From Pseudomonadota bacterium (GTDB lineage Bacteria > Bdellovibrionota_C > UBA2361 > OMIW01): 6,070 nt of DNA. Every line of letters begins with the position of its first letter. The stretch's first letter is position 1. Of this stretch, positions 1 through 6,070 are shown piece after piece. The position numbers and the translations under genes were made by a program. The notes under the pieces were generated by a model that was not told where the DNA came from, searched no databases, and saw only the letters and a list, made by a program, of their open reading frames with translations. The stretch lies in contig OMIW01000174.1 in assembly GCA_900299205.1 (NCBI GenBank), positions 1 to 6,070 of the forward strand. The letters are read 5' to 3'.

Positions 1-295
1 AGAGATCTTCAAAATTTTCCTTCAGAAGTTCAAACAGGGCGGACCACACCGCATAATTAGCCTCAATCCTCGCACGCTGGTTGGCCGCTTTTATCTTGTA
101 CGCCTTATCGAGTTGTCCCAGATAAGTTTGATAAGCATCACTCAATCGTTGCCGCGCCGCATTTATCCCCTCACGGTCTTTGGCCTCTCGTCGAGCATAC
201 CGAGCGATCTCCTCAGGGTCGAGCCTGAACCCTCCCTGCCGCGAGTCTTGACCCTTATCACCGCCACGGGCTGAGCTGAGGAGTTTTAGGAACAT
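1..295 (-). CDS. Hypothetical charged helical protein, N-terminal part (runs off the window)
   Basis: This is an open minus-strand frame from an ATG at 295 to the window edge, giving 98 codons without a stop. I do not recognise the product. Residues 1-30 are Gly/Arg/Ser-rich with one short hydrophobic patch (MFLKLL). From about residue 30 (LDPEEIARYARREAKDRE) onward it is rich in Ala, Arg, Lys, Glu and Gln with no prolines or glycine clusters, which suggests long amphipathic helices or a coiled coil. There is no clear signal peptide or membrane segment. The ATG is the only start in the frame: an in-frame TGA lies about 55 bases upstream with no ATG, GTG or TTG between. No Shine-Dalgarno sequence precedes it. 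A TACAAT box (310-315) would place transcription start within about 10 bases of the ATG, so the message may be nearly leaderless. It lies 172 bases after murG on the same strand, where murC is often found, but it has no Mur-ligase P-loop. Confidence 0.6.
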   Translation of the reverse strand, partial: MFLKLLSSARGGDKGQDSRQGGFRLDPEEIARYARREAKDREGINAARQRLSDAYQTYLGQLDKAYKIKAANQRARIEANYAVWSALFELLKENFEDL

Positions 296-467: not shown

Positions 468-1544
468 CTACCCCCGCTTTCGCAAAAGTGCCAATACGCC
501 ATCCGCGATTCGAGCCGCTGCGGCCGCATCATCGCTCCCCTCTCCCGGCTTTTTCTGAAACGACTCGTAAGCAATCGGGTCAAGCATCTCCTCCAGATGA
601 GCCTGCATACGGCTCGCGAAAGCGGCTCCCTCAGGACATACCACCCCCTGACCCCGCTCGACGAGAAGACGGGCGTTGTAATGTTGTTCCTCGGCTCCCG
701 GTAGCGGAACAAGAATCGATGGACGACCGGTATATCGGAGCTCCCTCATCATCCCAAGACCCGAGCGACTGATAACGATCGATGCCCACTGATAGGCTTC
801 GGTCATCGAATCAATAAAGGTCACCACTGTCGCATCAACCCCTGCATTATGATAGGCGTCGCGAACCGACTCTACCCACTCAGGTCTACACTGATGACGA
901 ACCTTCAAACCCCGCTCAGCGAAAAATGGCGCGAGAGCGATTCCCACCTCATCGAGCGCACGAGCTCCTTGCGAACCCCCGGTAATTAAAACCGTACGCC
1001 GTTCCTCCGCAGAAAACGGCACGAAGGTCGACCTTATTAGCTCAGGTCGCAGCGGCTGTCCGGTTACTACGGTGTGCGCCCACACCGGCATGTGTGCGTC
1101 TGAAAAGCTCACCGAGCACTTTGTCGCTACAACGCTTAACGCCCAGTTTGCCCACCCGGGCCGCCGCTCTGCCTCGTGGATCCACGTTCGAACTCCCCGC
1201 AAAGCCCCGACCGCAACCGGCAGCACCGATGCGTACCCACCAACACCGATAACCACCCCCGGCTGAAGCTGTCGCACAAGACTCCACGCCTGAAGCAGTC
1301 CGGCTGGAAGATGAAGGAGCCATGCGACTACTCCACGCATGCCCATGCGTCTGAGCTTACGCGAGAGCACGACATACCGAGGATACCCACCCCCATCAAC
1401 AAGCTTCTCTTCGAGTGGGGTGCCCGCACCAACAAACGCTATCCTCACCTCGGGATCAGCCCGCTTGAGGGCATCGGCAATGTAGAGAGCCGGAAGGAGA
1501 TGACCTCCTGTTCCACTTGCTGCGATAAGAATTGTTCCTGACAT
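468..1544 (-). CDS. murG: MurG, lipid II synthase (UDP-GlcNAc:lipid I GlcNAc transferase)
   Basis: MurG is a GT-B fold, peripheral inner-membrane enzyme that transfers GlcNAc from UDP-GlcNAc to lipid I, making lipid II on the cytoplasmic face. Visible motifs, counted from the ATG at 1544, are GTGGH (11-15), the acceptor-side GGYAS (102-106), GGSQGA (189-194), SRSGLGMMRE (259-268, with the conserved Glu near its end) and PGAEEQHYNA (282-291). The frame stays open to an ATG at 1607. I choose 1544 because it gives 358 aa (E. coli 355), puts the glycine loop at the usual distance from the N-terminus, and has GGGAG 4 bases upstream. Two motifs depart from consensus: the usual HEQN reads HEAE (123-126), and the usual GNPVR reads GQPLR (162-166). 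It is the last of the four Mur/Fts genes, 66 bases after ftsW, and is not followed by murC. Assignment is firm; the effect of HEAE is unknown. Confidence 0.96.
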   Translation of the reverse strand: MSGTILIAASGTGGHLLPALYIADALKRADPEVRIAFVGAGTPLEEKLVDGGGYPRYVVLSRKLRRMGMRGVVAWLLHLPAGLLQAWSLVRQLQPGVVIGVGGYASVLPVAVGALRGVRTWIHEAERRPGWANWALSVVATKCSVSFSDAHMPVWAHTVVTGQPLRPELIRSTFVPFSAEERRTVLITGGSQGARALDEVGIALAPFFAERGLKVRHQCRPEWVESVRDAYHNAGVDATVVTFIDSMTEAYQWASIVISRSGLGMMRELRYTGRPSILVPLPGAEEQHYNARLLVERGQGVVCPEGAAFASRMQAHLEEMLDPIAYESFQKKPGEGSDDAAAAARIADGVLALLRKRG

Positions 1545-4430: not shown

Positions 4431-5510
4431 TCACCGCAGCTTCAAAGTTGTCAACGAAAGAAGCGCGAGCACTACCGATATAATCCAAAACCTCACAATA
4501 ATTTTTGGTTCAGCCCACCCTTTGAGCTCAAAATGGTGATGAATCGGCGCCATCTTAAATACCCGCTTCTTCCTCCATTTATACGAATACCGCTGAATGA
4601 TGACCGAGAGGGTCTCGACTACAAATATCCCCCCCGAGACAACAAGCATCAGCTCCTGCTTACAGAGAACAGAGACAAATCCGAGAATCCCTCCCAGGGC
4701 GAGCGCCCCCGTATCCCCCATAAACACCTGAGCAGGGAAGGTGTTGTACCACAAAAAGCCAAGTCCCGAAGCAACAACCGCGGCGAGAATAATGCTGATT
4801 TCACCAAGATTGGGGACATACAGGACACCTATGTATTCGGCGATCCTCGCGTGTCCCGAAACATAACAGAACACCGCATAAGTCGCTGCAACCGTCATAA
4901 CCGGACCAATCGCGAGCCCATCCAGGCCATCCGTCAGGTTGACTGCATTCGAGGTCCCGATGACAACGAATATGACAAAAGGGATGAAAAGAATCCCGAG
5001 CGGAATCGCGGCCTGCTTGAAGAAAGGAAGCTGAAGAGTCGATGGGAATGCTGACCACAAAAGCCACCCAGCTGCGATGCCTGCGACGGAGACCTGCAAT
5101 AGCAGTTTTTGTCGCTCGCTTAGCCCTTTTGAATCTTGCTTAGTAATCTTTTTCCAATCATCAAGAAATCCGACGTAAGCAAAAAGATTGAAGACAACCA
5201 GCGCAACCCAAACCGCACCGACCGAGAGGTCACAAAAAAGAAGAGATGAAAGGGTCACCGCAACCACAATCACCAACCCTCCCATCGTGGGCGTTCCCCT
5301 CTTCGTTTCATGCTCACGGGGGCCATCATCTCGAATGGGCTGTCCCTTCACCCCCATCCGGTGCAACCGACGGATAAAGAGTGGTTCAACAACGAGCAAA
5401 AAAAGGAAACAGAAAAAAAACGCCGAAAGACACCGAAATGTCTGATACCGAAAGACATTGAGCACGGCGTAGTAGCCAGAGAGGCCTTGATAGAGAAGAT
5501 GGTAAAGCAC
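4431..5510 (-). CDS. mraY: MraY, phospho-MurNAc-pentapeptide translocase (lipid I synthase)
   Basis: MraY is an integral membrane enzyme that transfers phospho-MurNAc-pentapeptide from UDP to undecaprenyl phosphate, forming lipid I. About ten membrane segments are visible. Key motifs are DDGPREHETKRGTPTMGG (61-78), FLDDWKK with the catalytic Asp pair (117-118), NLTDGLDGL (191-199), FMGDTGAL (263-270, Asp266) and PIHHHFELKGW (322-332, His324). The conserved end VRFWIIS is present. The frame is open further up to a TTG at 5657, which would add about 49 unrelated residues. I place the start at the GTG at 5510: it gives 359 aa (E. coli 360), starts with LYHLLY as many MraY proteins do, keeps Lys70 and His324 at E. 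coli numbers, and has GGAG 5 bases upstream. It is first of the four-gene run, 73 bases before murD. The N-terminal segment FFFCFLF is encoded partly by a T8 run. Confidence 0.97.
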   Translation of the reverse strand: MLYHLLYQGLSGYYAVLNVFRYQTFRCLSAFFFCFLFLLVVEPLFIRRLHRMGVKGQPIRDDGPREHETKRGTPTMGGLVIVVAVTLSSLLFCDLSVGAVWVALVVFNLFAYVGFLDDWKKITKQDSKGLSERQKLLLQVSVAGIAAGWLLWSAFPSTLQLPFFKQAAIPLGILFIPFVIFVVIGTSNAVNLTDGLDGLAIGPVMTVAATYAVFCYVSGHARIAEYIGVLYVPNLGEISIILAAVVASGLGFLWYNTFPAQVFMGDTGALALGGILGFVSVLCKQELMLVVSGGIFVVETLSVIIQRYSYKWRKKRVFKMAPIHHHFELKGWAEPKIIVRFWIISVVLALLSLTTLKLR

Positions 5511-5718
5511 AGATGCTCCAGAAGAAGGGGTATCGGGCGATTCGATGTGGACAGTAGCGAACACTGCAGGTATGCGCAACAAAAGCCGCCGTTGGAGGAC
5601 TATACCGTAAGTGGGAATTGGTTTCGATGGTAGCGAGAGAAAACAAAAACATTCCAATCAATTGCCCCAGCAGCAAAAGACTGGTCCGGGCCAACATTGT
5701 TGAGCTCACTCCACTCAT
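5386..5718 (-). CDS. Doubtful small ORF overlapping the mraY start
   Basis: A 110-codon frame runs from an ATG at 5718 to a stop at 5386, in a different frame from mraY. Its first 35 codons read as a hydrophobic peptide (TSLLLLGQLIGMFLFSLATI, roughly residues 10-29) after a short polar start, as in a membrane anchor or signal peptide. After residue 50 the composition is Cys/Pro/Arg-rich and looks random, and the last 125 bases lie inside mraY. A GGATAGG sequence lies 4 bases upstream of the ATG. Only the N-terminal part could be meaningful, for example as a leader peptide. It may equally be chance. Confidence 0.12.
   Translation of the reverse strand: MSGVSSTMLARTSLLLLGQLIGMFLFSLATIETNSHLRYSPPTAAFVAHTCSVRYCPHRIARYPFFWSICALPSSLSRPLWLLRRAQCLSVSDISVSFGVFFLFPFFARC
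5516..5519 (-). promoter_or_regulatory. Ribosome binding site of mraY
   Basis: GGAG on the minus strand lies 5 bases before the GTG at 5510. With the protein alignment it fixes the mraY start and argues against the TTG at 5657. Confidence 0.5.
5599..5627 (-). promoter_or_regulatory. Candidate promoter of the mraY-murD-ftsW-murG operon
   Basis: Reading on the minus strand, TCGAAA (5622-5627, 4 of 6 to TTGACA) is followed by exactly 17 bases and TATAGT (5599-5604, 5 of 6 to TATAAT). Transcription would begin near 5592, giving a leader of roughly 80 bases before the mraY GTG. No better sigma-70-type pair was seen between the divergent genes on this strand. This is a pattern match only. Confidence 0.4.
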
Positions 5719-5738
5719 CGCGCCTATCCAAAAAAGGT

Positions 5739-5770
5739 TTGACACAGAAAAACGGGGGGGGGGGTAAAAT
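5739..5770 (+). promoter_or_regulatory. Candidate phase-variable promoter of the TadE-like gene
   Basis: A perfect TTGACA (5739-5744) and TAAAAT (5765-5770, 5 of 6 to TATAAT) face the plus-strand gene. The spacer is CAGAAAAAC plus 11 G, or 20 bases, against an optimum near 17. At exactly 17 bases from this -35 the hexamer is GGGTAA, which is not a -10 box. The sequenced state should therefore be weak, and shorter G tracts (8 or 9) should be stronger. Spacer homopolymers of this kind control promoters of Neisseria porA and opc. The function here is inferred. Confidence 0.45.
5754..5764. repeat. Homopolymer of 11 G in a promoter spacer
   Basis: Eleven uninterrupted G residues form the longest homopolymer in the window. 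The next longest are runs of 7-8 bases, for example A8 at 5413-5420 inside mraY and A8 at 2750-2757 before ftsW. The run is non-coding in both annotated genes and sits between the -35 and -10 boxes of the plus-strand candidate promoter. Tracts of this length are prone to slippage, and also to sequencing error. Confidence 0.9.
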
Positions 5771-5866
5771 CAACCTATTGATGAGAACAGTTATTCAAAA
5801 TGAGATAAAAGAGGGCGATTGTCACTACGGCCTGGGGGAGTTCGCCGTGATATGTCCGGGGAGAGC

Positions 5867-5872
5867 GAGGAG
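5867..5872 (+). promoter_or_regulatory. Ribosome binding site of the TadE-like gene
   Basis: GAGGAG lies 7 bases before the ATG at 5880, a near-ideal site. It favours 5880 over the in-frame ATGs at 5781 and 5901. Confidence 0.7.
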
Positions 5873-5879
5873 AAGCTGT

Positions 5880-6070
5880 ATGACGCATCCAAAGCGATCG
5901 ATGAACCGTCACGAGCGAGGGGTCGCATTTTTAGAAGTTGCGATAATCGCTCCATTGGCGGTGGCTACGGTGTTCGGGTTGGGTTTCTATGCAGATCTAT
6001 ACTGGACCAAGACCCGATTGGCAGATTCCGCTCGGGTCATTGCGCGGGCTATTCAGGATGACCCTACTAT
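5880..6070 (+). CDS. TadE/TadG-like pseudopilin, N-terminal part (runs off the window)
   Basis: This is an open plus-strand frame of 63 codons reaching the window edge. A short basic N-terminus (HPKRSMNRHERG, ending at Gly14) is followed by VAFLEVAIIAPLAVATVFGLGF (15-36), a single membrane helix, then a polar amphipathic stretch (YADLYWTKTRLADSARVIARAIQDD). This is the layout of TadE-family proteins, minor pseudopilins of the Tad (Flp) type IVb pilus system: basic lead, G-x4-E, hydrophobic helix with Pro after the Glu, then a helix ending in an AR..AR pattern. Gly14 with Glu19 five residues later fits prepilin-peptidase processing. The start at 5880 is chosen because GAGGAG precedes it by 7 bases. 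The frame is also open to an ATG at 5781, which would add 33 unlikely residues and place that start almost at the predicted transcript end. It is transcribed away from mraY, under the promoter with the G tract. TadE, TadF and TadG cannot be told apart from this fragment. Confidence 0.65.
   Translation, partial: MTHPKRSMNRHERGVAFLEVAIIAPLAVATVFGLGFYADLYWTKTRLADSARVIARAIQDDPT

Follow-up and report, generated by a model that had tools for sequence, protein, structure and literature searches.

A poly-G tract between promoter-like boxes before an orphan TadE-domain gene: a doubtful candidate for a porA-like switch in an uncultured lineage

The porA promoter of Neisseria meningitidis carries a poly-G tract in its spacer, and each G alters the spacing, with an optimum of 17 (PMC7864442; first described by van der Ende 1995, according to PMC5084427). 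At opc the mechanism differs from that of porA, with a poly-C tract that extends over the -35 region, while at Treponema pallidum tpr poly-G tracts of 8–10 nt lie near surface-protein gene promoters (PMC7864442). In Bifidobacterium breve, G-run slippage controls a sortase-pilus cluster (PMC9187656). A literature search found no description of phase variation for the uncultured lineage studied here. It also found no paper on homopolymer phase variation of a tad gene.

The window analysed here is the whole of contig C174 (6,070 nucleotides), from a genome assembly of 2.45 Mb in 206 contigs that is about 90% complete. It contains a G homopolymer between intact -35 and -10 boxes, the position that a porA-type promoter requires (Table 1). 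The tract is flush against the -10 box, both boxes are oriented towards a TadE-like gene on the same strand, and the site falls ~110 nt before that gene's start codon. Direct reading and a script recovered exactly the boxes, spacer and tract length first described.

Table 1. Features at and around the G tract, in coordinates of the window
Feature	Position	Strand	Basis or remark
mraY, divergent, GTG start about 5510	4431–5510	-	sequence
Weak promoter-like site TCGAAA-17-TATAGT, 9/12, facing mraY, background frequency	5599–5627	-	sequence
TTGACA, exact sigma-70 -35 consensus	5739–5744	+	direct reading and script
Spacer, 20 nt: CAGAAAAAC then G11	5745–5764	+	direct reading and script
11-G run	5754–5764	+	sole G/C homopolymer of at least 8 in the window
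TAAAAT, 5/6 against the -10 consensus; preceded by GGG, no extended -10	5765–5770	+	sequence
Orphan TadE-domain gene, 5' part; second in-frame ATG at 5901	5880–6070	+	sequence

Considering how such a tract could act, we propose that the TadE-domain gene may have a sigma-70-type promoter here, perhaps a degenerate one, whose spacer is filled by the G run. A gained or lost G would shift both the -35/-10 spacing and the helical phase, and transcription would track tract length. Should RNA polymerase start here, the strength of the site must vary with the G count, as at porA. The promoter would be productive at 7–9 G (16–18 bp) and weak or off at the 11 G of the assembly. The model rests on three suppositions: use of the site by polymerase, the lack of a further promoter for the TadE-like gene, and slippage frequent enough to turn its expression on and off.

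Promoter spacing in this genome bears on the model. We sampled 188 upstream regions, some of them picked for a nearby G run; of the 14 strong TTGACA/TATAAT-like pairs in this sample, 9 had spacers of 16–18 bp (binomial P = 1.4e-4). Spacing therefore matters in this genome, which appears to use sigma-70 promoters, and the premise of an optimum at 17 plus or minus 1 gains support. By the same token a 20-bp spacer should be poor, so the promoter as assembled is predicted to be weak or off. The original arithmetic was right: 17 bp needs 8 G and 18 bp needs 9 G. The assembled tract is thus two to three G away from a productive length, and no spacer of 16–18 bp lies within one step of it.

That the site is a real, spacing-sensitive promoter is possible, though short of probable, judging from its sequence. 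About equally likely is a fortuitous juxtaposition, in which one of many G runs happens to lie between TTGACA and TAAAAT in an intergenic region. Tract length would then be neutral, and the TadE-like gene would be transcribed from elsewhere, or poorly. Against chance speak the right orientation, the placement of the tract directly at the -10 box and the quality of the match. When flanks were shuffled (mononucleotide shuffles throughout), an 11/12 match to TTGACA/TATAAT with a spacer of 15–21 arose around this run with P = 0.0005; for at least one of the genome's 66 long G runs the value was P = 0.01. The site is thus unusual per locus, yet within chance for a scan of many genomes.

Several genome-scale counts favour the fortuitous account. 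None of the other 65 G runs of at least 9 reaches even a 9/12 promoter match, with 0.9 expected by chance. Genome-wide, strict TTGACA-N13-23-TANAAT pairs are no commoner than in a reversed control (6 versus 8). Across 45 genomes of the phylum there is no second TTGACA-G8+-TANNNT site, a result near chance when scaled from the shuffle test. We also considered a genome-wide family of G-run promoters and rejected it, as none of the 65 other runs qualifies and G7-TANNNT is not enriched in the genome (6 versus 7 in the control).

The abundance of G runs points the same way. The genome holds about 66 G or C runs of at least 9, versus about 41 expected, and about 9 of at least 11, versus 3–4 expected, both expectations being extrapolated from shorter runs. 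This excess of long runs is modest. Most runs of at least 9 are inside genes, including ordinary ones: sigma-54 rpoN, a SNF2 helicase, a PP2C phosphatase and a trypsin/PDZ protease (11 each), and a class II lysyl-tRNA-synthetase-like gene (10). Since long G runs are common here, also in housekeeping genes, an 11-G run alone marks no contingency locus.

Homopolymers are also prone to artefacts of sequencing and bioinformatic methods (PMC8808543). Several contigs of this assembly (C59, C103, C57/C178) end at G/C runs, as expected of ambiguity in length or of sequencing error. The C59 terminus (1–19, minus strand) consists of TTGACACA followed by G11, a second instance of this combination; it lies 180 bp before a livM-like gene of opposite direction, and its downstream side is absent from the assembly. 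The ends of C178 (1–40) and C57 (6340–6386) agree over 20 bases that lead into a C run, where two substitutions separate them (C11-GTT versus C13-T); this difference suggests strain variants or poly-G/C sequencing error. In an intergenic region of C5 (near 755–778, minus strand), before a 223-aa gene, G9 runs directly into TAGAATAAAA; there the run is flush with a -10-like hexamer, and no clear -35 box stands at 17.

Similar arrangements occur in other genomes. A class-mate carries TTGACAC-G10-TAGGTAATTT before a gene for a signal-peptide protein. Outside the phylum, genome G054 has TTGACATTTCT-G10-TATAAT (TTGACA-N5-G10-TATAAT; contig C66, 552–580) before a lipoprotein-like gene. A second genome outside the phylum, G052, contains four related-looking sites that start with TTGACAA, some of them in coding sequence, and these are possibly a promoter family. 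Sites in G052 and G054 combine TTGACA, a run of G7–G10 and a TANNNT box, some of them upstream of genes for lipoprotein-like or exported proteins. These pattern matches in three genomes show a recurring design; they do not establish that the site in the window works.

What gene would such a promoter control? A Shine-Dalgarno-like GAGGAG stands just before the ATG start codon at 5880. The window end and the end of contig C131 overlap by 87 identical bases, and across this join the gene runs on to 378 aa. The Pfam TadE domain matches the N-terminus at 21.8 bits for the whole protein, against a cut-off of 22.9, and at 26.4 bits in a six-frame search. A paralogue on contig C62 matches residues 8–249 at 56% identity; because this match spans the contig junction, it supports the join. 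Upstream of the paralogue there is no G run.

The gene was initially described as a Tad-type pilus component. Its TadE match is borderline, and the gene stands outside a tad operon, between ftsI with the neighbouring transposase gene and mraY. The genuine tad operon is on contig C150 and comprises RcpC/CpaB, a CpaF-type ATPase, two TadB/C-like genes and its own TadE. The gene in the window is therefore an orphan, and the pilus label is a guess. Its product would be a TadE-domain membrane or secreted protein.

The surrounding locus is rearranged. On its minus strand the window encodes mraY, murD, ftsW and murG, and the divergent intergenic region between the mraY and TadE-like starts spans 369 bp. 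Beyond the TadE-like gene, C131 carries a Y1 (IS200/REP-type) transposase gene, identified by Pfam, and then genes that we take, by sequence and order, for ftsI, ftsL, rsmH and mraZ. When positions 4431–6070 of the window are joined to 3624–8076 of C131, the dcw cluster is interrupted between ftsI and mraY, where the inverted TadE-like gene stands together with the transposase gene. Genes murE and murF usually occupy this position in dcw clusters; here murF is on contig C196. In the best named MraY relatives (two 'Candidatus Dadabacteria' MAGs and one uncultured bacterium), Mur-ligase genes lie directly upstream of mraY and replace this region. None of the nearest relatives compared, which are related only at the level of order, carries the TadE-like gene.

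This setting suits a further alternative, that the promoter is real and permanently weak. The 20-nt spacer would keep expression of the orphan gene low, and the tract would be fixed or would drift unselected. A spacer outside the 16–18 bp peak fits, as does the position of an orphan gene next to a Y1 transposase in a dcw locus that has been rearranged. On the other side, some slippage is usual for long G runs, as is generally known, and we consider a permanently weak promoter quite unlikely. A translational switch, in which the run would be part of an in-frame N-terminal extension (from TTG 5697, encoding GGGGK) and slippage would cause frameshifts, is very improbable: although an open frame leads from 5697 across the run to the TadE-like gene, the extension has neither a good start nor a good Shine-Dalgarno sequence, the C62 paralogue lacks it, and ATG 5880, with its clear Shine-Dalgarno sequence, is downstream of the run.

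Returning to the spacing-sensitive promoter, we think it unlikely that the site is also a natural phase-variable switch, a claim that forms part of the broader one. The slippage-driven ON/OFF promoter originally envisaged keeps its boxes, spacing and orientation; it loses the G11 tract as a sign of contingency, given how common such runs are, and the assembled length is off by two to three steps. The full reading is accordingly doubtful: it sees a porA-like poly-G spacer switch that acts on the gene of an orphan TadE-domain surface protein, itself placed within the dcw cluster of an uncultured lineage. If true, it would add a new example of the porA kind of switch and carry spacer-slippage promoters past host-adapted pathogens into such a lineage. 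G-tract length would then be a simple read-level marker of surface variation in metagenomes. If not, the locus teaches caution: since this genome often carries and tolerates G runs of 9–11, finding one near promoter-like boxes is a weak sign of phase variation.

The site resembles each of the known systems in part. The B. breve switch also rests on a G run and controls a pilus cluster; it is, however, intragenic and of the frameshift type, and it concerns sortase pili, with neither a promoter spacer nor Tad. Treponema tpr genes share the poly-G near a promoter, but the tprL tract overlaps the -10 box in part and leaves spacing unchanged. The preliminary description had placed the site with both Neisseria switches. 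For opc the likeness is loose: there too a homopolymer lies in the promoter and its length controls transcription, whereas the opc tract encompasses the -35 region and here an intact TTGACA precedes the run. The parallel with porA is a true one. Although the TadE-like gene is no porin, and length variation and expression have been measured for porA while the present site is known from one assembled length, in both cases a poly-G run lies within the spacer and each G changes the spacing.
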